From Cryobacterium soli (lineage in GTDB: Bacteria > Actinomycetota > Actinomycetes > Actinomycetales > Microbacteriaceae): a DNA stretch of 64,000 nucleotides. This document shows positions 4,297 to 18,106 of this stretch, in pieces; positions within the stretch are counted from its first letter, which is position 1, and each line of letters starts with the position of its first letter. The stretch lies in assembly GCF_003611035.1 (NCBI RefSeq), contig NZ_CP030033.1:3286001-3350000 (forward strand). The letters are read 5' to 3'. Both the position numbers and the translations under genes were made by a program. The notes beneath the pieces are model-generated. The model ran no database searches, was not told the origin of the DNA, and saw only the letters and a list, made by a program, of their open reading frames with translations.

Positions 4297-4386
4297 GGTA
4301 CCGTGTCCGAGCGGCCGAAGGTGCAACTCTCGAAAAGTTGTGTGGGGGAGACTCCACCGTGGGTTCAAATCCCACCGGTACCGCCA
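4297..4386 (+). tRNA. tRNA-Ser(CGA)
   Basis: Acceptor strands GGTACCG (4297-4303) and CGGTACC (4376-4382) pair perfectly, followed by discriminator G and an encoded CCA (4384-4386). The anticodon stem GCAACT/AGTTGT encloses the loop CTCGAAA, giving anticodon CGA, which reads UCG serine codons. A long variable arm, typical of class II tRNAs, precedes the T arm, which has TTCAAAT in its loop. The 3' end is the attachment site of the genomic island that follows. Confidence 0.95.
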
Positions 4387-4387
4387 C
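4363..4387 (+). repeat. attL: 25-nt direct repeat at the tRNA-Ser 3' end
   Basis: The 25 nt from the T arm through the CCA and one more C are repeated exactly at 18036-18060. The upstream parts of the tRNA are not repeated there. Duplication of a tRNA 3' end at the far edge of foreign DNA is the footprint of tyrosine-recombinase integration. Confidence 0.9.
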
Positions 4388-4390
4388 AGA

Positions 4391-4437
4391 TAAACCCTCT
4401 GCTTCCCTTTGTTTTCAAGGGACGCAGGGGGTTTTCT
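4391..4437 (+). terminator. Rho-independent terminator after tRNA-Ser (element-supplied copy)
   Basis: An inverted repeat of AAACCC..CTGC..CCCTT with AAGGG..GCAG..GGGTTT around a short T-rich loop is followed by TTTTCT. It is inside the island boundary and strongly resembles the terminator after the far repeat at 18062-18106. The element therefore seems to restore both the tRNA end and its terminator. Confidence 0.8.
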
Positions 4438-4600
4438 CATGTCTGACGGCGTCCTTCGGACGCGGATTGGACACATCTGAAACTCGTTCTGCAATATCGA
4501 GGGCTACCCAGACGGCGTCCAGGTCATCATCGAAGAGATAACCGTAGGCGTCGGGTGTGATTGCGTCGCAGGCATGCACGAGCATCCGCTGGACCAATTC
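4415..4600 (-). pseudogene. Remnant of tyrosine recombinase C-terminus
   Basis: The minus-strand frame reads VQRMLVHACDAI, then a Tyr region, then LFDDDLDAVWVALDIAERVSD. This aligns with the last ~55 residues of the recombinase at 8728-9588 (VQRMLGHASAAM..LFDDDLDAVSVALDNAKRVSD). Everything upstream, including the catalytic Arg and the HxxR box, is missing. The catalytic His of LGH is shifted to LVH and the surrounding text has diverged. Position and orientation, next to attL and pointing to the tRNA, are those of an integrase gene, so this is probably the end of the original or an earlier integrase. Confidence 0.8.
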
Positions 4601-4758
4601 CACAGGGTAGGTAAGGCTCGATGGCTGAAGACGCCCGCGACCGGACTTGATCGCTCTAGATCTTCTCCTGAGCGAAGAGGGACTCACCGTTTGTGCCTGT
4701 CCCTCCGGCCGTGGGACGCGACGGCCTCAGAAGTATAGTTGCGCCGGACGGCGCACCA

Positions 4759-7254
4759 CTACGTGCGAGTTCGCGTCTGCACGCTCGTGCGGATGTCGCC
4801 GGTTTCGATATTCTGGCGAATGAGCTCCTGACGCATCTGTTGGAATACCGGTGCCACCCCAGTAGGATCTGCGATGGTCAGAATCGCAGCGAAGTGAACG
4901 CCGGCCTCCGGCGGCGCCTCGTCGAAACGCGGCAAGTAGTCAACTGCAAGCTTCCAGTTTGACGACGGACCAAGCCCTGTCATGCGCCGGTGAAATGACT
5001 TGACTACCTGCCACTTGAGGGCTTCATCCATGAGATCCTTCTCCGCGTGTGGTTCGCCGGAGCTGGCGCGGGGAGCGTTCACGGGCAGGAGACGGTTCTG
5101 GAAGCCACCATCACGTTTCTGCTGCATCAACCGGGCGCCAACGTTCATGCGCACACGCTCGGCGCCGTGCTCGTAGGCAAGGAGCGGTCTAGCCACCACG
5201 GTGAGTCGAGCCTCCCCGCGGCACTTGCCTTCTTTCACGAGGGCCTCGGGCCAAGAGAATTCGAGCTCAGCGTCCTCCTTCGGTCGCAAAACGCTGTCCA
5301 CAACGAGCGTGATTTCGGAATCGGCGCGTTGCAGCATCTCATCGGCAGCGATTGGCACACCGAATCCAACTAGGTTTCGCGCAACATGCTTGAGGTCCTT
5401 GTGGGTGAATAGCTCCGGAGTGCGTGCATAGTGCACGAGGAGAGCGAGGAGTACTTCTCTTGAAACTTCGCCGTCGATGAGCGACTCGAGGTCGGCGAGG
5501 CTCCGCGCGACGAGCGGGGCTGCATAACTGGTGCCGGCCTCTGCGACGAGCGTGCCAAATTCATTCACTGAGACCAGCCCGGATCCCTCTGTCGGGGTTG
5601 GAGAGCCTGATCCGCCGATGTGTCCGAAATCGGGCTTTATCGCTCCTCTGAGGCCCGGGCCGCGCTTGCTGTACCGCGCAGGGGCGAATGGAACGTGGTT
5701 TTCGAGCCCGGGCGGATTCAGGGCTGATACGGAAACGTTGTAGAGACTCTCCCCTGGCTCGGCTAGCACCCCCGAAGTGTCGCCCACAAGGCTCGATAGC
5801 GCGGTCGCGTTGTCGGGCGCCCACTCGGTTCGGAACTGGCCAAGCGACAGGTTCCCAGCCGAGATGACCACAATGACGTCATGGGTAGCCGCAATCTGGT
5901 CTAGACGACGAGCTACGTATCCATAGCGGTTCGGTTCGCCGGGACCGGTGAAATTCATGCTGAAGTTGAACACTCGTACGCCGTGGTTTCGACGAAAATC
6001 CGCGATGGCCGCTTCGATCTCATCCATGAAGTCTGGGACGCCACCTGGGTAGTAGCTATCGAAGGGCAACCCCGTTTGACCGGGGTCGTTTGGCAGCACA
6101 TCGATATCGAATATTCGGCACCCGTGGGGCTGCGCCAGGTACCAGTTCAACGTTCCCGCGGCTACGAGCAAGCCCGAGATGAAGGTGCCGTGCCCGAGCT
6201 CGCGGTCCTGCGGAGCGAGCTGTCCCCAGCGGTTCTCAACCCATGCCCCAATGGTGTCGCTTACTCCTCCGTCGATCACTCCGACGGCCGAAGCCGACAC
6301 TTCTTGGTCACGCTCGAAAGTCGTATTGGGCGCAGGGGAACCGAGTGCGAACGACGCAGAAGCGGATGGTGCGATGACCGGTGGCAGAAGGATGTGGCGG
6401 ACCATCGGGTTGGCCTCGATGGCGGTCAGAGCCTCGTGGTGAGCGTTTGGTTCGACAGTGATGACCGTCCTAGCAGCTGGGAAGGGCTCAACATGCCCAC
6501 CTACTCCACGTGGCTCGAACGTCAGCTCCCGGACATTATGGTCAGCTATAACTCGCGAATGCAGCACAAGCGGACCAGAGCTGGCCAACACCTCAGCACT
6601 GACACCGACGGCAACGAGGGACGAACGGAGTTCCAGCAAAGCAGCGGTTTCGGCGGCCGCAAGCAACTGATCGTGAGTGGCGCTTGCTCGGGGGAACAAC
6701 TCAACGAGGTACGCGCCTCCGGTCCCTGGGCGGCTCAGCCAAGCCGCACCAGTTTCTGCGCTGAAGGCTCGCTTGTTTTCGTCGGACCACAAGGAGATTG
6801 ACTCGATCGCCGACGCCTCACAACGATTCCGACTCGGGTTCTGGCGCGGCTCGCCGTTGGCATCCAGACGCACATCAATAACAGTCTCAGCTTGCTCGAT
6901 CGCGTCGAGGACGAGTCGAAGCGATGCAGGTGTCGCCGCGAAAATCGGTTCGCCGATGTCTACCGTGGCCACGTGCGGAGTCCAACGGGAGCGGAAGATA
7001 CTCTTCTGCGGTCGGTGCGATTTGGCGATTGCCTTACGGGCCATCGTCACTTTGACGTGGCCGAGGCCGAGGCCGCCGGCCTCAAGCGCCGCGATGATAT
7101 GTCTGACCGAAGCCGCGATCAACTCCCTGTGCGCGGCGAAAGCTTCGTTGCGTCCGGCGTAAAAATCTCGTCCGTGACCCACCGGGGGCGTACGCTCGCG
7201 ATCAATATTGATCGTGCGTGGATTCAGGACGATCTGTACCGGCTCATTCGCCAC
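4759..7254 (-). CDS. ietS: Subtilisin-like (S8) serine protease of an IetAS-like antiphage system
   Basis: This 831-residue S8-family protease has Asp328 (in VGVIDGG), His355 (GHGTFISG), the oxyanion Asn468 (SAGN) and Ser576 (GTSYAAP), so the triad is intact. An unusual N-terminal ~300 residues precede the catalytic domain and ~220 residues follow it; no signal peptide is seen, so it is expected to be cytoplasmic. Its start GTG (7254) overlaps the end of the AAA ATPase gene by 11 bp, implying translational coupling. The pairing matches IetA/IetS, described first as an Agrobacterium plasmid incompatibility/toxicity locus and later as antiviral. The family call rests on architecture and pairing, not on a search. 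Confidence 0.85.
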   Translation of the reverse strand: MANEPVQIVLNPRTINIDRERTPPVGHGRDFYAGRNEAFAAHRELIAASVRHIIAALEAGGLGLGHVKVTMARKAIAKSHRPQKSIFRSRWTPHVATVDIGEPIFAATPASLRLVLDAIEQAETVIDVRLDANGEPRQNPSRNRCEASAIESISLWSDENKRAFSAETGAAWLSRPGTGGAYLVELFPRASATHDQLLAAAETAALLELRSSLVAVGVSAEVLASSGPLVLHSRVIADHNVRELTFEPRGVGGHVEPFPAARTVITVEPNAHHEALTAIEANPMVRHILLPPVIAPSASASFALGSPAPNTTFERDQEVSASAVGVIDGGVSDTIGAWVENRWGQLAPQDRELGHGTFISGLLVAAGTLNWYLAQPHGCRIFDIDVLPNDPGQTGLPFDSYYPGGVPDFMDEIEAAIADFRRNHGVRVFNFSMNFTGPGEPNRYGYVARRLDQIAATHDVIVVISAGNLSLGQFRTEWAPDNATALSSLVGDTSGVLAEPGESLYNVSVSALNPPGLENHVPFAPARYSKRGPGLRGAIKPDFGHIGGSGSPTPTEGSGLVSVNEFGTLVAEAGTSYAAPLVARSLADLESLIDGEVSREVLLALLVHYARTPELFTHKDLKHVARNLVGFGVPIAADEMLQRADSEITLVVDSVLRPKEDAELEFSWPEALVKEGKCRGEARLTVVARPLLAYEHGAERVRMNVGARLMQQKRDGGFQNRLLPVNAPRASSGEPHAEKDLMDEALKWQVVKSFHRRMTGLGPSSNWKLAVDYLPRFDEAPPEAGVHFAAILTIADPTGVAPVFQQMRQELIRQNIETGDIRTSVQTRTRT

Positions 7255-8431
7255 TGTTCGGGCCTTCCCCTACGGATTCACTCAGCCGCCGCTGAATCGT
7301 CTTGGTGCTGCATTTGAAGAGCTGTGCAAGCTCAGCATGGTTAAAGAGACCATCGGCAGCGGCGAGCTCGGCGGTTAGTAGTACTTCGTCAAGTTCGATC
7401 TGACGTCTGCGATCGGACTCGACTCGAATGGACGTAGATCGCGCCACTTGTAGAGCGGTTTCGATGGGCGCAGAGTTGGGATCGTCGCGGAGCAAGCGAC
7501 GCTTGCGATACTTCGTAGCCATCGTTTGCACTTCAGCTCCGGACGCACTGTCACAGAGCCACGCGATGAGCTTGGCCTCGGCTGTGAGTCCATCATCAAG
7601 CAGCCGGCTTGCGATCACGGTTCGTTGTTCGAGGCCTGGCAGCGGAACGGCGAGCTGGACCTCAAATCGACGCCAGATTGCCGGGTCGAGTAGCATCTCG
7701 TGGTTCGTGAGACCGATAGTGACGCCTCGCCCGTCTCGGGCGTCCATGTTCTGAAGCAGCGCGTTCACTACGCGCTTTATCTCACCCACTTCGTTGGGAT
7801 CGTCGCGTAACTTGGCAATCGCGTCGAATTCATCGAGTACGAGCACGCACTCGTAGCGGTTAGCGAAGTCGAAGAGAGCGCCGAGGTTCCGAGCGGTGTT
7901 GCCAAGGAAGGAACTGATCAAACCGTCCAAGCGCGCAACGACTACGGGAAGATGCAATTGCTGAGCCAACCACATCGCGACCGTGGTCTTCCCTGTACCT
8001 GGCGCACCGTAGATCAAGAGCGATTGGGATGGATGCATGCCGGCCTCGATTAGTTGGTCAGCCTTCGCCCATTCACGAACCAGCGCATCAACGTTGTCTT
8101 GAACGGATGCCGGAAACAGTGGCAGCGTCGCGTCGAGCGTCTCTGGCATGTGTATGGTCGCGAGAGGGGCAGCCGAATCTTTGTCCACGGGCACGCGGAC
8201 GCTGGCCGTCATGCGCTCCCCAGCGGTAACGGCGCTGCGCTTCATCCGGCTTGGCGCGAGCTTGGTCGATCGCTCACGGCTGTGCAATAGCTGAACCAAC
8301 GCGGCGGCGTCGCGGCTATCGCCTGCGTCCGTCATCGCTGCCGCGAGCCGCTCTACTTGATGGCGCAGTGGCTCACTATCGTTCGCCAAAGCGACACGGA
8401 CAAGGGATTTCAGGATAGAAAAGTGCTGCAT
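7244..8431 (-). CDS. ietA: AAA+ ATPase of an IetAS-like antiphage system
   Basis: This 395-residue AAA+ protein has Walker A GAPGTGKTT (residues 142-150), Walker B VLVLDEFDA (196-204), a sensor region LTNHE (about 241) and an arginine pair in WRRFE (about 254). The C-terminal ~30 residues (LAQLFKCSTKTIQRRL) resemble a helix-turn-helix. It is the first gene of a two-gene unit with the overlapping subtilase gene. In the known IetAS pair the ATPase is thought to act with the protease; sensing or substrate delivery is inference. The start ATG at 8431 is the first in frame. Confidence 0.85.
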   Translation of the reverse strand: MQHFSILKSLVRVALANDSEPLRHQVERLAAAMTDAGDSRDAAALVQLLHSRERSTKLAPSRMKRSAVTAGERMTASVRVPVDKDSAAPLATIHMPETLDATLPLFPASVQDNVDALVREWAKADQLIEAGMHPSQSLLIYGAPGTGKTTVAMWLAQQLHLPVVVARLDGLISSFLGNTARNLGALFDFANRYECVLVLDEFDAIAKLRDDPNEVGEIKRVVNALLQNMDARDGRGVTIGLTNHEMLLDPAIWRRFEVQLAVPLPGLEQRTVIASRLLDDGLTAEAKLIAWLCDSASGAEVQTMATKYRKRRLLRDDPNSAPIETALQVARSTSIRVESDRRRQIELDEVLLTAELAAADGLFNHAELAQLFKCSTKTIQRRLSESVGEGPNSGE

Positions 8432-8727: not shown

Positions 8728-9588
8728 TTAGTCGCCGAATGGCGCTTTGGGGCGTGAACCGGACACATCTGAAACTCGTTTGGCGTTATCGAGGGCTACT
8801 GAGACGGCGTCCAGATCATCATCGAAGAGGTCCGCATAGGTGTCGAGTGTCATTGCGGCGGAGGCGTGACCGAGCATCCGTTGGACTGCTTTCACGTTCG
8901 CACCCGACGAAACGGCCAGGCTTGCGGCGGTGTGACGCAGATCGTGGATGGTGACCCGGGGAAAGGCCTCGTCGACGAGTTGCGCCTTGGCCACTGCGGC
9001 GACGAACCAGCCGCGCCGTCCGTCCGGCTGCGCCTGGTGAACCAGCCCCGTTCCAAACACCAACGCATCATGGCTCTTACCCTCGCACTGCAGCGCCAGA
9101 GGGTTGGTTAGGAACTCCGGATAGGGCACGCTTCGCGCCTCGTGTGATTTCGGGGTGCCGACGATCACGTGACCGCCAACGTTGACGGCATTCTCTTGCA
9201 CCCTCACGCGCCGCCTAAGGGCGTCGAGGTGTTTGAGACGAAGTCCAGTGGCCTCTCCCCATCGGAGGCCCGTGTAGGCAAGCGTGAGGACGAGCGTGGC
9301 GTGTCTGCCAGCGTTGTCGGCGAGCAATTGCACCTGGTCGTGCGAGAGGTACACGCGGGCCTTGCCGGTCTTGCGGGGGAGAGCGACGCCTCGGGCTGGG
9401 TTCGAATGGAGGCGTCGGTCTTTCACCGCTGCATCGAGGATCGCGGCGAGAACCCCATAGGCCCGCAGGACTGTGGTCGCAACCTTCCCGGCAGCCTCGC
9501 CAGTGCCGGCCGTCAACGACGATACCCAGGCCTGCACTGCTGTGTGGCGGATGTCCCCGATCGCGACGCGGCCCCATGTTGGCAGCAC
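8728..9588 (-). CDS. Tyrosine recombinase/integrase, N-terminally truncated
   Basis: The catalytic domain is complete. Counting from the ATG at 9588, it has Arg109 (TGLRWGE), Lys147 (TPKSHEARSVP), His215-x-x-Arg218 (HDLRHT), His241 (LGHAS) and Tyr251 (DTYADLF). The protein is 286 residues, whereas integrases of this type usually have 360-400. Homologous sequence (AWRLYVLPTWG) continues a few codons upstream of the ATG, then meets an in-frame TGA near 9620, so the arm-binding domain and the first core-binding helix are lost. It would have integrated the island into tRNA-Ser; whether the remnant is active is doubtful. Confidence 0.88.
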   Translation of the reverse strand: MLPTWGRVAIGDIRHTAVQAWVSSLTAGTGEAAGKVATTVLRAYGVLAAILDAAVKDRRLHSNPARGVALPRKTGKARVYLSHDQVQLLADNAGRHATLVLTLAYTGLRWGEATGLRLKHLDALRRRVRVQENAVNVGGHVIVGTPKSHEARSVPYPEFLTNPLALQCEGKSHDALVFGTGLVHQAQPDGRRGWFVAAVAKAQLVDEAFPRVTIHDLRHTAASLAVSSGANVKAVQRMLGHASAAMTLDTYADLFDDDLDAVSVALDNAKRVSDVSGSRPKAPFGD

Positions 9589-11670: not shown

Positions 11671-12030
11671 CAGAAGTCCTCTCGGGAATCTGCATCATCA
11701 TCCCCCCTGCACCGTGAGCTCGGGAAAACGCCCTCCCACGACTGCCGCAGTTGAGGCGGCAAAGCTTTGGCGACATAGCTACGAAACGATCACGGGTGAG
11801 GATCTGGACCCGGTCCGGAGTGAGGCACTCCTGAATCGTCGCTTGGTAGGCACGGATCGCGTGACCCTCCACGTCGAAGTTCGCGATCGAACTTGGAGCG
11901 CGTAGACCCGTAGCGGACGCCCCGCGGGGACGCTCGCTGGCTCGTGAAGCTCATCGAACTGCGCAGGTGCGTCGTAGGGATACTCTTCCAATGTGAGAGT
12001 CGAACGCTTGAGTCAACGAAGGTACGTCTC
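11671..12030. other. Gene-free or degraded stretch
   Basis: I see no ORF worth calling in these 360 bases. Several short minus-strand frames give protein-like text in pieces (for example PLRVYALQVRS and AYQATIQECLTPDR), which suggests a decayed gene. The pieces do not join into a recognisable family. Confidence 0.4.
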
Positions 12031-12828
12031 ATGAGCGACCTGGCGGGCAGGCTTGGGGCGATCGGTTCTCGACACTCACGAACATTGACCGAGCAGGCTC
12101 CTCCTCGCCTACGAACGTTGTTACGCGAAATTGTCGTCGGAGAGCGGGGGATGATCGAGGCATACCGCGAGCTTTCCGATTTAGCCGGACAGTCCGTCGA
12201 CGATATCTGGAGCTACGATTGGGCGGCTCCCCGAGTGCGTGAGCTTGCGGACAATCTCAGTTGGGATCTGGTGTATGCCGCGCTTGAGAAGTACGCGCCA
12301 AGACCTGCGCGTGAACTTGCTTCTTACGAGACGAAGGTGAACGACGTACTTGCGCGCGAGGGCATCGCGTACGAGATGGTGCACGGTAGATTCCAGGCGT
12401 TCGATCCGGAAGCAACCGACTTCGACCTCGATCTTGTTAACCCTGTGGATGGTGAGAATCTTGCACCAGTGCGCAGGCAGTACCAACGCGCACTGGACGC
12501 GCTCAACGGGCGCCCGGCCGATAATCTCGCAGCGATACGAGAGTCGCTGAATGCGCTCGAAGCCCTCGGCCGAATCATAATCGGGAAGCCCAAGGCGTCC
12601 CTCGGCGAAGCAATGGACAAGATCCTGGGTAGTTCACCGCACCGGAGAGCGCTAGCCGCCGTCTTGAAGTCGCTCTATGGGTATTCGAGTACTGTGCCGG
12701 GCGCACGACACGGAGAGCATGAAACTGTCCAAATTGACTATCCCGAGGCCGCCTTCGTTGTGAGGAGCGCGGGAGCGGCAATTGCAATGCTCATTGCAGA
12801 GGACCGCCTGGAACATCATTCAGATTAA
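12031..12828 (+). CDS. Uncharacterised protein with Abi_C-like C-terminus
   Basis: The ATG at 12031 has AAGG ten bases upstream and gives a 265-residue, mostly alpha-helical protein. The last ~80 residues (LKSLYGYSSTVPGARHG, then an AAFVVRSAGAAIAML helix) have the layout of the abortive-infection C-terminal domain: a helical start, an HG motif, then a small-residue helix. No transmembrane segment or catalytic motif is visible. It is separated from its neighbours by more than 170 bp and sits among other island cargo. A role in phage defence is inference from this pattern and location. Confidence 0.6.
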   Translation: MSDLAGRLGAIGSRHSRTLTEQAPPRLRTLLREIVVGERGMIEAYRELSDLAGQSVDDIWSYDWAAPRVRELADNLSWDLVYAALEKYAPRPARELASYETKVNDVLAREGIAYEMVHGRFQAFDPEATDFDLDLVNPVDGENLAPVRRQYQRALDALNGRPADNLAAIRESLNALEALGRIIIGKPKASLGEAMDKILGSSPHRRALAAVLKSLYGYSSTVPGARHGEHETVQIDYPEAAFVVRSAGAAIAMLIAEDRLEHHSD

Positions 12829-13112
12829 ACGGCTGTTAGCAACTCTAATCAGCCGTCTCAGATAGCTTCAACGACCACCTGACGCCCCCGGGGTGTTGTC
12901 GACTTCATCGAGGCGATGGACGGGACAACGATTCCTAGCTATAGTTTGGCTACGGCAGTCTGGACTGCCACTCTCCGAGTCTTAGTTCCCACGCGACTGA
13001 GATGCAGAGGACAACGGGTGCCGATCCAGAGATGCAGTATCTGTCAAATTCGAGATCTCTCTCAAAACAGGACTTGCACGCGCGGGATGCACAGTCCGGA
13101 ACGAAGATTGAG

Positions 13113-14255
13113 ATGACCTCCAACAACCACGCCAACAATCGCGAGCTCCAGCAAGATGCACGAGCCTGGGCAACCTTCACAGGCACGAAGTACACCGCCT
13201 CACTGCGACAAGTGACCTCTCCGTACGCACAGGGATTCCTCGGTGAACGGGTCAGCGCACGGCAGTTGATCGCTGCACTCGACAACCATCCGCTGGTCGG
13301 CGCCGACGGTGGCGATCCCGTCCTTGGCGAGAATGGCTGGTACGCCGAAGAGCCGTGGCAATTCAACGGAGAGACTGACTTCATCGAGCTGGCACTCATC
13401 ACAGAGTTGCTCCGCATGTTCACCACCATCACGAATTCCGCGACGCCGGACGTGAGCAGCTACTCGTTGAAGCACACCGCTGAACACTTTCTCAGTCCAC
13501 ATACCTCCTACGTATCTAACGGCAAACTGATCTGGGCTGCAGCAGCACTGGGGCTTCCAATCGCCGAAGCCCGGGACGGCAGCCCCAACCTCCTCATCGG
13601 GGTGTCAGAGCGCGAGCATGACTATGTCAGCCGAATGGTGGGCGGAGGACCCAAACCGCGTGGACACCACTACCGCCCGGCCGGATACGCTCACTTGCAG
13701 ACAGCGCTTCAGCGCGCTGAGTCTGGCGCGCATGCCGAGGACCGCTGGGTCCAGCCGGCACCTGGGCTAGAGGCAGCGCCGTTCCACGACTGGCTGGTAC
13801 AGCAAGCCAATCGCCAGGATGCGGTAGGCGATCTCGCGAGCGATTATTCCGCGGGCATTCGAGACAGTGACCACCGCATTGCGCGAACATCCGACGAGCT
13901 GCTGGTTGTCCTCAGCGAAGTTGGATACTCACCAGAGGCGTACCAGGCTGCGGAGCACGCGATCGCCGAATGGAAGAAAAAGTCGACGCCGTCGAGACCA
14001 TTTCGAACTGAGCGAATTGGTGCCGATTCTAACGACCACGATGGGTGGGGCGCCGGCGCGGGTACGACGGAGCGCTATGAGTATCTATGCGTTTGCGGCG
14101 ATGGCACGATCATCGAAGAGCATGAGAACACGCCGGGCTTCCGAGAACACGATGTTTGGATTGATTGCGACAAGTGCCGCGAGGAGTGGCGCTTCGTCAC
14201 CGACAGATCCGTGAGGGATTGGGCACTGGAACCTAACTCAGGCGGGCATGAATAG
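13113..14255 (+). CDS. Uncharacterised protein with YozE SAM-like segment
   Basis: The 380-residue protein starts at ATG 13113; an ATG at 13002 would add 37 residues of low-quality text. A segment near the middle, FHDWLVQQANRQDAVGDLASDY, split here as FHDWLVQQANRQDAVG and DLASDY, fits the YozE SAM-like motif (F-x-WL...D-x-x-GDLA-x-D). The C-terminus has a CVC...CDKC cysteine pattern that could bind zinc. The N-terminal region (QVTSPYAQGFLGERVSA) recalls actinobacterial proteins of unknown function. Function not recognised. Confidence 0.65.
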   Translation: MTSNNHANNRELQQDARAWATFTGTKYTASLRQVTSPYAQGFLGERVSARQLIAALDNHPLVGADGGDPVLGENGWYAEEPWQFNGETDFIELALITELLRMFTTITNSATPDVSSYSLKHTAEHFLSPHTSYVSNGKLIWAAAALGLPIAEARDGSPNLLIGVSEREHDYVSRMVGGGPKPRGHHYRPAGYAHLQTALQRAESGAHAEDRWVQPAPGLEAAPFHDWLVQQANRQDAVGDLASDYSAGIRDSDHRIARTSDELLVVLSEVGYSPEAYQAAEHAIAEWKKKSTPSRPFRTERIGADSNDHDGWGAGAGTTERYEYLCVCGDGTIIEEHENTPGFREHDVWIDCDKCREEWRFVTDRSVRDWALEPNSGGHE

Positions 14256-14383: not shown

Positions 14384-15241
14384 ATGATCGGAAAACACGA
14401 CCGACAGGAGTCGGACGAACAGATGCGGGTCGCAGTCCGCGCCGTCCAAAGCGCGCGCGCTCTGTATGGCCACCTTGCTGATCATCTTCCTGCCCCGCTT
14501 GCAGGATCCATGCTGGACATGGAACGTGCCCACACAGCGAGAGAGCCTATGGACGCGCTCGTGATGGCACATCGTGCTCGAGCTCGCGAAAACCTCGATC
14601 GAGTGTTCGAGATGATGATCGACAACGATAACGGGCGATTGCTCGCTTACCCGTTCTCCCTCTATGCCCTCATCCGTGCGGCGGTTGAGGCCGCCGCGAC
14701 ATCACTCTGGCTTGTCAAATCCTCAAAGAAGAAGGACCGAGTGCTGCGTTCGCTCCAACTTTCCTACCGGAATGCGCAAGAGGCGCTCAGATTTGCAGAG
14801 TTGATGAAAGGCAAAGGCGGTGCTACTCCAGCGCGACAAGGCGCCGCTAAGACCCTGGACCGTCTCAACCAGTTGAAGGACACAGTCGGGCCGCTTCGAC
14901 AAATAAAGCTTGGCCCGCCACCGAGGTACACGGCTATATTGATGGCTGTTTCGACCAAGAGGTACGGCAGTAACCCTGCAGGTTATGAGATTTCGTCGCC
15001 GCTAATGGTATGGAGCGTCAGTAGTGCCTTCCTGCATGGAAGCGAACAAGTCATGCGGGCGCTAAGCGACGTCCGGCAAATGGACGATTTCACCGATGGT
15101 GTTGCGTCCTTCGAGATAACGCCTAGCATCCAGATGCTGGCGGTTTCGATCCGGACGTGTGTCGAGCTCATTGATGAGCTTGACGAGCGTTATGTCTACC
15201 TTGCTACGCATGACTACGCGGGTCATGACGTCTCGATCTAG
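14384..15241 (+). CDS. Uncharacterised helical protein
   Basis: A soluble, largely helical protein of 285 residues with no signal peptide. A conserved-looking feature is YALIRAAVEAAATSLWL near residue 90, followed much later by VWSVSSAFLHGSEQ. This Arg-x-x-x-Glu helix plus Ser/His-Gly pairing recurs in actinobacterial hypothetical proteins of unknown role. ATG 14384 is the first start and follows GAGG. It is in the island cargo between the YozE-like gene and the DUF262-AlbA_2 gene, all on the plus strand. Confidence 0.65.
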   Translation: MIGKHDRQESDEQMRVAVRAVQSARALYGHLADHLPAPLAGSMLDMERAHTAREPMDALVMAHRARARENLDRVFEMMIDNDNGRLLAYPFSLYALIRAAVEAAATSLWLVKSSKKKDRVLRSLQLSYRNAQEALRFAELMKGKGGATPARQGAAKTLDRLNQLKDTVGPLRQIKLGPPPRYTAILMAVSTKRYGSNPAGYEISSPLMVWSVSSAFLHGSEQVMRALSDVRQMDDFTDGVASFEITPSIQMLAVSIRTCVELIDELDERYVYLATHDYAGHDVSI

Positions 15242-15524: not shown

Positions 15525-17309
15525 GTGACTGCCATGATTCACGCATGCCCACGCATGCCCACGCTTGATCCCGCGCCCCGCAGTATTCAATCCATATACA
15601 ACTGGCACAGCGACCATGACCTTTTTGTCAATCGCCGATATCAGCGAAAACTCGTGTGGACATTGCTTGAAAAGCAAAAGCTCATCGAGTCGATTACGAG
15701 TCAGTTTCCGGTTCCCGCCATACTTCTGGCGGAACGTGACGGCGGGGGCTTCGAAATCATTGATGGAGTGCAGCGTCTTTACGCGATCATCTCTTTTATA
15801 GAGAACAAGTTCCCCACCCTCGACGGTCAATATTTCGATATCGCGCATTTCACTAGCGCGCAACTGCGTGCCGACGAAGGCGCGTTCGAAGCAACGACGG
15901 AATCGGCCAAGCTATCCCAGCGCGAGGTGGCCGGCGTGCTGGATTACGTTATGGCAATCACTGTGATGCGCGAAGCAACAGAAGCAGAGATTGACGACGT
16001 CTTCGCGAGGATCAATACCTATGGCCATCGCCTTAGCGATCAAGAGCGGCGCCAATCGGGCGTCCAGGACGAATTCTCGATCATGATCCGTGAGCTAGCC
16101 ACCACGCTGAGGGGTGACGTTTCCAGCGACGTCCTTGAACTTTCGGACATGCCATCGATTTCCATAGATTTGCCCATGAGTAAACACGGTTACCAAGTTC
16201 AGGCCGAAGATGTATTTTGGGTCAGCCATGGAATTCTGCGATCAACGGATCTTCGCGACAGTCTTGATGAGCAGTACATCGCAGACATCGCAGCATGCGT
16301 GGTCGGCGGCGCAGTCATTGAACGATCGAAGGCCGCACTGGATGCGATTTACGACGGAGGAAGTGACGAAAACACCCGTGTACAAAACGCCCTCCAGATA
16401 TATGGAGTGGACAAGTTCGCGGACGAGTTCAAATTCGTCATTGATGAGATCGAGAAAATCTGTGGGGCTTGTGCACCTCTGAAGCTTCGCAACGTTCTCT
16501 TTACATCCCCGAACACCAATGGGTTCCCTTCGGTGTTCGCAGTTTTGTTCTTCGCCATACATGAGACGTTGGTGCAGCAGAAAAACGTCATCTCTGACTA
16601 TGAAGGTATGAAGAAAGCTATAACCGGTCTTGCGCTTCACTTGACCGTGAAAGCCACAGGCGCTGAAAAGCGGCGACGAAACATTGACGTGGTCAAAGGG
16701 CTTATTAGCTCTCATGTCGTTCCGGGTGTTGCGCCCAACATCTACGGTGCTCAAGCGACTTCAGACATAGATGGGCTGATCCGTCGTTCGCAAATAGAGT
16801 TGCCTCACTACGAGCTGAAACAGGGTGTGCTAACTCTCGCGCCGTCGGGGCGCGGACTGGACTCGGGAATGATCCCGAAGTTGGTCAAGACAATTTGTGC
16901 CATCGCGAACAACGGAGCATTCGCGGGAGCGCTCTTGATTGGTGTGACTGACACACCGAGCGATGCAATTTCCGTGAAGAATCTGGACCAGATTGAGCCG
17001 AGAAAAGTTGGACCACGGTTTGTCGTCGGCGTGCAGCGTGAAGCAAAGTTCCTGGGTGAGACGACGGAGGACTACTTTGCCCGGATAAAGGACGGTATCA
17101 AAAACTCTGATTTGAGCGCTGCGCTGAAGGCTGACGTCTTGTCCAGCATCGACTACAACGATTACTTCGGGCTTGGCATTGTCGTAATTCCTGTGCCGGC
17201 ACAAAGGAACCCTTCCTCGGTCGGAGATAAATTCTACTGGCGTTCGGGTGACTCAACTGTGGAAGCGACGGGACTAGAGATAGTGACCATAACGCAACGC
17301 TTCAGCTGA
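15525..17309 (+). CDS. DUF262 (GmrS-like) - AlbA_2 (Schlafen-like) fusion protein
   Basis: The N-terminal domain is DUF262: VNRRYQRKLVW at about residues 35-45 and the signature IIDGVQR at 78-84, related to the ParB/Srx-like NTPase fold of GmrSD type IV restriction enzymes. A helical middle region follows. Residues ~425-590 match AlbA_2 of Schlafen-type proteins: YELKQG (429-434), ICAIANNG (457-464), LIGVTD (471-476) and FYWRSGDST (570-578). The length is 594 residues from GTG 15525; ATG 15534 or 15555 are alternative starts. DUF262 proteins are frequent in restriction and antiphage systems, and AlbA_2 is found in nucleic-acid-targeting proteins, so nuclease-type defence is a reasonable inference. 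Codon use is more AT-rich than the flanks. Confidence 0.78.
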   Translation: MTAMIHACPRMPTLDPAPRSIQSIYNWHSDHDLFVNRRYQRKLVWTLLEKQKLIESITSQFPVPAILLAERDGGGFEIIDGVQRLYAIISFIENKFPTLDGQYFDIAHFTSAQLRADEGAFEATTESAKLSQREVAGVLDYVMAITVMREATEAEIDDVFARINTYGHRLSDQERRQSGVQDEFSIMIRELATTLRGDVSSDVLELSDMPSISIDLPMSKHGYQVQAEDVFWVSHGILRSTDLRDSLDEQYIADIAACVVGGAVIERSKAALDAIYDGGSDENTRVQNALQIYGVDKFADEFKFVIDEIEKICGACAPLKLRNVLFTSPNTNGFPSVFAVLFFAIHETLVQQKNVISDYEGMKKAITGLALHLTVKATGAEKRRRNIDVVKGLISSHVVPGVAPNIYGAQATSDIDGLIRRSQIELPHYELKQGVLTLAPSGRGLDSGMIPKLVKTICAIANNGAFAGALLIGVTDTPSDAISVKNLDQIEPRKVGPRFVVGVQREAKFLGETTEDYFARIKDGIKNSDLSAALKADVLSSIDYNDYFGLGIVVIPVPAQRNPSSVGDKFYWRSGDSTVEATGLEIVTITQRFS

Positions 17310-17525
17310 AACGTCTTTTCCAGAAACGAGCGAGCCGCCACTTAGCTAACTGAGCACTGTCAAGCGCTGCCCGGGGTCCGGGTCGGCCACGGGCTCTGGA
17401 TGGAGGAATAGTGAGCTTGCCGCTCGACCTGATCTTGATGGCCTGGCTTGGCCAAAGAGACTATTTCGGTCAGTTCCAGGTCCTCGATGCCTGACATGGT
17501 CGAGAGACTTGGGAGCCTGTTGAGC

Positions 17526-17876
17526 ATGAATGATGCAGACACGGCTATGGACGACTCCAGCGCACCCTATGACGATGTAGCGGAGGCTCACTTCCGGGAG
17601 AGGCTTGGATGGCGATCCGCCCGGTCCGAGGGCCGATCGGATCTATATTTCGACCAGTGGACTTGGACAGAGACCGAGAGACCTCCTTGGCGGAGCCCGA
17701 CGCTTGTCCAATGCGTTGGCGACGGCAGATACCAGGTCGTATGGGCTGATGTACCGTTCGAACCGAGCGCTGAACCGTACACCTTTCACAACTGGTCGGA
17801 TCTCATGCGCGCAATCGGATTGATTGAGAAGTGGGAGGGGCTAGCTGGCGATGCGCCGCCGCAACTTAGCCACTAA
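17526..17876 (+). CDS. Small hypothetical protein at the island's right end
   Basis: This acidic protein of about 116 residues is counted from ATG 17526, which has GGAG ten bases upstream; the frame is open from 17448. It is rich in Trp and aromatic residues (for example FDQWTWTETERPPW and QVVWADVPFEP), which gives it the look of a real folded domain. I recognise no family. It is the last gene before attR. Confidence 0.5.
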   Translation: MNDADTAMDDSSAPYDDVAEAHFRERLGWRSARSEGRSDLYFDQWTWTETERPPWRSPTLVQCVGDGRYQVVWADVPFEPSAEPYTFHNWSDLMRAIGLIEKWEGLAGDAPPQLSH

Positions 17877-18035: not shown

Positions 18036-18060
18036 GTTCAAATCCCACCGGTACCGCCAC
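18036..18060 (+). repeat. attR: 25-nt copy of the tRNA-Ser 3' end
   Basis: Exact copy of 4363-4387 (T arm to CCA plus C). The bases before it do not form a tRNA. It marks the right border of the island. A short direct repeat of TGGACACA (17913-17930 area), common in attachment arms of actinobacterial elements, lies about 100 bp inside the border. Confidence 0.9.
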
Positions 18061-18061
18061 G

Positions 18062-18106
18062 AAAACCCCCTGATTCCCTGTTTTTCCGGGAAATCAGGGG
18101 GTTTTC
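18062..18106 (+). terminator. Original chromosomal terminator of tRNA-Ser
   Basis: AAAACCCCCTGAT pairs with ATCAGGGGGTTTT, with additional TCCC/GGGA pairing around a T-rich loop, and is followed by TTTTCT. It sits just outside attR, where the tRNA's native terminator is expected after integration. Confidence 0.85.

Follow-up and report, generated by a model that had tools for sequence, protein, structure and literature searches.

This locus raises the question of what a bacterial protein that joins a DUF262 domain to a Schlafen-type domain is for. The gene lies in a 64,000-nucleotide stretch of the Cryobacterium soli genome (contig NZ_CP030033.1, positions 3,286,001 to 3,350,000; hereafter the window, in which all coordinates are given), and an original prediction, made from the letters alone, had named it a candidate single-gene defence system. 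Some of its relatives occupy known anti-phage gene slots of prophages, so the protein probably has a role in phage defence. With moderate confidence, we interpret it as an abortive, single-gene anti-phage protein in which a DUF262 sensor would be combined with a Schlafen RNase.

Positions 15525-17309 of the plus strand form an uninterrupted open frame with a 594-residue reading, and the gene has a GC content of 52.6%. The start had been placed at 15525, but homologues begin at the methionine at residue 11 of this reading; because of homologue lengths and the near invariance of that methionine, the ATG at 15555 is the likely start (Table 1). In the 594-residue numbering, which is used throughout, all five motifs quoted in the original prediction are present: RYQRKLVW (38-45), IIDGVQR (78-84), YELKQG (429-434), LIGVTD (471-476) and FYWRSGDST (570-578). 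They had been read as an N-terminal DUF262 domain and a C-terminal AlbA_2 domain, the latter in place of an HNH/DUF1524 partner, and Pfam searches agree. GmrSD_N (PF03235) matches residues 31-176 (E=3.4e-19, 70.2 bits, cut-off 33.2), SLFN_AlbA_2 (PF04326) matches residues 453-581 (E=1.7e-5, 25.7 bits, cut-off 25.3), and DUF1524 is without a match at E<=1. The motif [DE]H-x(1,3)-P was sought in the whole protein and was not found.

Folds were assessed in an AlphaFold2 model. Its N-terminal end matches SspE and ParB, and loosely BrxU, and its C-terminal end matches SLFN5, SLFN13 and the tRNase domain of SAMD9. The C-terminal half is therefore AlbA_2/Schlafen-like in the predicted model as well. 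The N-terminal half had been described as an NTPase-like sensor; for DUF262, the name ParB/Srx-fold nucleotide-binding domain is preferred to that of a generic NTPase.

Conservation of the two predicted active sites was measured in an alignment of 154 sequences, comprising the query, 120 database proteins and 33 proteins from loci (16 of them divergent), with locus open reading frames (ORFs) shorter than 570 amino acids excluded. At the Schlafen site, E425, an E or D at position 430, and K432 are found in 154/154 sequences, and D or E at position 476 in 152/154. At the DUF262 site, D80, Q83 and R84 are likewise present in all 154, and G81 and R41 in 153 each; a second alignment of 37 sequences, down to 25% identity, shows conservation that agrees. 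The DUF262 pocket motif reads IDG[LMV]QR in most members, with L, M or V at position 82, as against Q in (I/V)DGQQR. The C-terminal pattern E-x4-E-x-K followed by GVxD has a spacing that corresponds to the Schlafen triad, and a profile search puts this triad in register with SLFN11, but at E=1.1. In SLFN13 the triad is reported as E205, E210 and D248, with each mutation diminishing activity and E205A and E210A inactive (PMC5862951), and the acidic residues of SAMD9L are given as E186, E198 and D243 (PMC11221667). Since the Schlafen triad and the DUF262 D, Q and R are retained to this extent, both halves of the protein look active.

Of 7997 candidates scored in the homology search, 2369 proteins had E<=1e-3, which is far beyond chance, and each of the 120 matches listed spans 93% or more of the query. 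Relatives are present in Actinomycetota, Pseudomonadota and Bacillota. At a threshold of E<=1e-60, few actinobacterial genomes have a member. The order yields 3 in 297 and a phylum draw 2 in 396, with the window's own genome counted in both; one actinobacterial family yields 14 in 297, and one genus within it 5 in 70. Viral contigs in IMG/VR contribute 32 loci. Ten of the 31 loci compared share a neighbour family that is the portal protein in an annotated Escherichia coli copy of one, a count to be read in the knowledge that several loci have long DNA stretches in common. Other members are carried on conjugative plasmids. At least one E. coli plasmid copy is interrupted by insertion sequences, and the plasmid form appears as if it is being lost.

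Four chromosomal forms were followed across 5426 E. coli genomes, with gene context inspected for the cases named here. Two forms occupy the A–Q interval of P2-like prophages; one is found in 3 genomes (one context inspected) and the other, at 80% coverage, in 17 (contexts inspected in UMNK88 and in the laboratory strain E. coli W, whose member, WFL_RS04695, lies inside a P2-like prophage). A third form, in a P4-like satellite, is flanked by psu and int and is found in 9 genomes at 80% coverage (one context), one of these copies having an insertion sequence inside. In the fourth, found in 28 genomes (two contexts), the gene is flanked in P2-like prophages by baseplate gene V and a virion-morphogenesis gene. 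The P2 S–V interval is a classical P2 accessory-gene site. Both the A–Q interval of P2 and the psu–int interval of P4 are reported hotspots of anti-phage systems (Rousset et al. 2022, PMC9122126), and DUF262, GmrSD and Schlafen are absent from the main text of that report. Thus homologues are not limited to housekeeping settings: E. coli members occupy accessory positions of P2 and P4, others are carried by conjugative plasmids or viral contigs, and the window copy shares its island with the IetAS anti-phage system. A separate observation is that a single gene family occupies three accessory sites (loci L056, L057, L058, L100, L101 and L106), of which two belong to P2-like prophages and the third to a P4-like satellite. 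Two records labelled E. coli DH5alpha (NZ_CP026085.1 and NZ_CM135829.1) share this gene with E. coli W and are possibly mislabelled strains.

Partner genes were sought by clustering 296 neighbouring proteins, taken from three ORFs on each side of 51 loci together with five from the window; genes under 80-100 amino acids were left out. In the 51 loci, no partner gene recurred within three ORFs of the family gene, and the window's own neighbours, including the gene immediately upstream at 14384..15241, never recur. The clusters that do recur are phage genes, one five-locus group resembling fragments of the family gene, and small groups in at most 4 of the 51 loci. The absence of a recurrent partner fits a single-gene system. 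The original prediction of a single-gene defence candidate is supported, since neither of the two outcomes named in advance as refuting it, a C-terminal region unlike AlbA_2 in structure prediction or homologues in housekeeping contexts alone, was observed. Around the actinobacterial members, genes for mobility stand out (GntR/UTRA, FtsK, NUDIX and RepSA), and none of them appears in the 25 control families that are shown out of 123; we take these neighbourhoods to resemble pSAM2-type integrative elements. Four actinobacterial loci (L046, L092, L098 and L099) have an adjacent gene of one shared, unnamed family.

Both parent families, DUF262 and Schlafen, are already known in defence. The best-scoring PADLOC families for the DUF262 half are PD-T4-2_A (1.3e-16) and NsnA, which is presumably the DUF262 gene of Menshen. 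The NsnA match covers the N-terminal half only, and no other PD-T4-2 or Nsn match was found among the five island neighbours scanned. The NsnA and PD-T4-2_A profiles have lengths of 385 and 363, and a review describes separate partner genes (PMC10952713), whereas here the effector is fused. The same source pairs the DUF262 protein of Menshen with a predicted OLD nuclease, lists PD-T4-2 with HEPN, and states that resistance by Menshen and Dazbog was abolished by mutating or deleting their DUF262 genes (PMC10952713). Like GmrSD, BrxU and SspE, the fusion protein has an N-terminal DUF262 domain with a DGxQR pocket, and its helical region after DUF262 recalls the GmrSD linkers, given as 200-400 residues (PMC4619093); unlike them, it has Schlafen AlbA_2 where DUF1524/HNH would be, besides the altered pocket motif. 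The additional domains named in a 2015 survey of GmrSD are DUF4268, DUF4357 and DNA_binding_1; neither AlbA nor Schlafen appears in its text (PMC4619093).

Fusions of HEPN to ParB(DUF262), such as VNG7073 (with HNH) in a 2013 HEPN survey, similarly join an RNase-type domain to DUF262, but the domain is HEPN and not Schlafen; the survey mentions a Schlafen–HEPN fusion, and no DUF262–Schlafen fusion was seen in its available portions (PMC3710099). With SLFN5, SLFN11, SLFN13 and SAMD9/SAMD9L the protein shares the AlbA_2 fold, as modelled, and an E/E/D acidic triad with a K. It differs from these in being bacterial, in the one lobe seen, and in having AlbA_2 at the C-terminus joined to DUF262. 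Schlafen-family RNases in a prokaryotic defence setting are a further likeness: a 2026 BREX paper describes Schlafen RNases near BREX that differ in being fused to a minimal histidine kinase and a winged helix-turn-helix domain, and bacterial Schlafen defence proteins are said there to cleave tRNA and cause abortive infection (PMC12839542). Among phage protein families, phrog_26759 matches over the full length (E 1.2e-211) and is a catalogue entry without an assigned function. In the literature, we encountered no account of a DUF262–Schlafen family member protecting against phage. A 2025 preprint by Taboada et al., known to us by citation, reportedly proposes bacterial Schlafens as anti-phage RNases, and there is some chance that it already covers DUF262–Schlafen fusions.

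For the abortive reading that we favour, the following sequence of events is proposed. The DUF262 half and the helical middle domain would sense a sign of infection, which by analogy with GmrSD, BrxU and SspE is most likely to be DNA that is foreign or modified. Nucleotide binding or turnover would then cause a conformational change that releases the C-terminal Schlafen-type, metal-dependent endoribonuclease, and the freed enzyme would cleave tRNA or rRNA, stopping translation before phage maturation. The most economical view is of a GmrSD-like sensor whose DNase has been swapped for a Schlafen RNase and which would act alone, probably through growth arrest. More tentatively, and with some doubt, type IV DNA sensing may have been turned into tRNA cleavage, DUF262 reading modified or injected phage DNA and nucleotide turnover activating the Schlafen RNase. 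If so, the protein would be a one-protein bridge from restriction to translation shut-off, carried in three or more phyla by prophages, satellites, plasmids and islands. The gene couples the DUF262 sensor to a domain of the class with which the human antiviral Schlafens and SAMD9 cut RNA. Should the predicted RNase activity be real, DUF262 would emerge as a general infection switch for DNases (GmrSD), OLD-type nucleases, HEPN RNases and Schlafen RNases, and what it senses would become addressable by a simple one-gene read-out.

Several results weigh against a Schlafen RNase under DUF262 control or against a defence role. The AlbA_2 score of the window protein exceeds the Pfam cut-off by 0.4 bit only; in a scan of 7 relatives, 5 are above it (up to 40.2 bits), the UMNK88 member is under it and another has no match at E<=0.01. 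In the precomputed Pfam column, 26 of the 120 matches listed show PF03235 only, with no AlbA_2. The DUF262 motif departs from the DGQQR of GmrS, and in the sequence-profile search unrelated chains rank higher than SLFN11. Foldseek alone, run with the whole model against the PDB, gave no match at E<=1e-3, and a single AlbA_2 stretch, or Schlafen lobe, is apparent (coordinates were not compared for the second lobe of the SLFN box). Of 847 matching E. coli plasmid records, 107 retain at least 80% of the gene and most are partial, so the gene is dispensable there. PADLOC matches around 16 actinobacterial loci (16 families in 150 proteins) are not clearly above those in control stretches from 9 of the same 16 genomes (12 in 108). 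For this last reason, the argument for defence rests mainly on the enterobacterial hotspots, a plasmid restriction cluster and the IetAS island.

The same protein could instead be a type IV modification-dependent restriction enzyme, with AlbA_2 as a DNA-binding domain and DNA rather than RNA as the substrate cleaved. We consider this unlikely, given that a DUF1524 match and the [DE]H-x(1,3)-P motif are both absent and that the Schlafen RNase triad, which DNA binding alone would not require, is among the residues conserved in the C-terminal part. An accessory gene of prophages and plasmids with another role, such as superinfection control, gene regulation or plasmid maintenance, would account for the pemIK and parM genes that adjoin the family gene on one E. 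coli plasmid, for the label 'Putative DNA-binding domain' that some sources give the protein, and for the lack of a clear PADLOC enrichment in actinobacteria. It is nevertheless improbable in view of the conserved catalytic-type residues and of members in two published anti-phage hotspots, at a third P2 accessory site and on the IetAS island. Dependence on a partner gene or host factor from elsewhere, which would make the protein a defence effector but not truly a single-gene system, is very unlikely in our estimation. Related DUF262 proteins do have partners (the OLD nuclease of Menshen and HEPN of PD-T4-2; PMC10952713), and a possible HEPN-type (AbiJ_NTD4-like) gene is on the same island; however, the effector is already fused, and the recurrent neighbours are of the kinds described above.

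The fusion gene is part of a 13.7-kb island between 25-bp repeats, with 59.4% GC compared with 70.5% and 67.7% in the flanks (Table 1). The repeat is a perfect copy of the tRNA-Ser 3' end and occurs twice in the window, whereas 100 shuffles gave no match. A third att copy was not found in the window, and an unoccupied site for the island could not be demonstrated. In a relative (G980:C51:82607-85468), two copies of the tRNA-Ser 3' end lie ~2.8 kb apart, so elements may insert repeatedly at this tRNA gene within the genus. Beside attL, a 149-nt direct repeat is 79% identical to positions 8747-8895 inside the integrase, and these two integrase 3' ends suggest island growth by successive insertions.

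Table 1 Features of the fusion gene and its island in the window (residues in the 594-residue numbering).
Feature	Position	Strand	Remarks
DUF262–Schlafen fusion gene	15555..17309	+	584 aa; GTG at 15525 would add 10 codons
DUF262/GmrSD_N domain	15615..16052	+	residues 31-176; Pfam PF03235; IDGVQR at 15759-15776
Helical middle region	16068..16748	+	residues 182-408
Schlafen AlbA_2 domain	16749..17306	+	residues 409-594
Schlafen catalytic-type residues	E425 16797-16799, E430 16812-16814, K432 16818-16820, D476 16950-16952	+	
tRNA-Ser(cga), presumed integration site of island	4297..4386	+	
attL-type 25-bp repeat (tRNA 3' end)	4363..4387	+	perfect repeat
Probable integrase remnant ORF beside attL	4415..4687	-	overlaps repeat of integrase 3' end; no Pfam match
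IetS, subtilase of IetAS anti-phage system	4759..7254	-	PADLOC E 4e-248; Peptidase_S8
IetA, AAA ATPase of IetAS	7244..8431	-	PADLOC E 1e-136
Tyrosine integrase	8728..9588	-	Phage_integrase E 3e-18
Candidate defence protein, AbiJ_NTD4-like region	11944..12828	+	PADLOC PDC-S32 E 1.8e-26
Upstream neighbour of fusion gene, function not assigned	14384..15241	+	285 aa
attR-type 25-bp repeat	18036..18060	+	inverted repeat 18061-18106 comes next

The island also carries a complete IetAS pair (4759-8431, minus strand), an independent anti-phage system; its IetA matches the NCBIfam model 'anti-phage ATPase IteA' at 287.7 bits, under the 510-bit cut-off of that model. The AbiJ_NTD4-like protein scores 28.2 bits in Pfam, under the cut-off of 34, and possibly has a HEPN domain, since AbiJ proteins are reported to contain one (PMC3710099). 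Three plus-strand ORFs (13002-14255, 14384-15241 and 17448-17876; 417, 285 and 142 amino acids) are without a Pfam, PADLOC, NCBIfam or PHROG match, and the first two could form a further module. A second DUF262-like protein is encoded elsewhere in the genome of the window at locus L003 (C1:4337882-4338421), where an ORF of 369 amino acids is 27-29% identical over the first ~180 residues.
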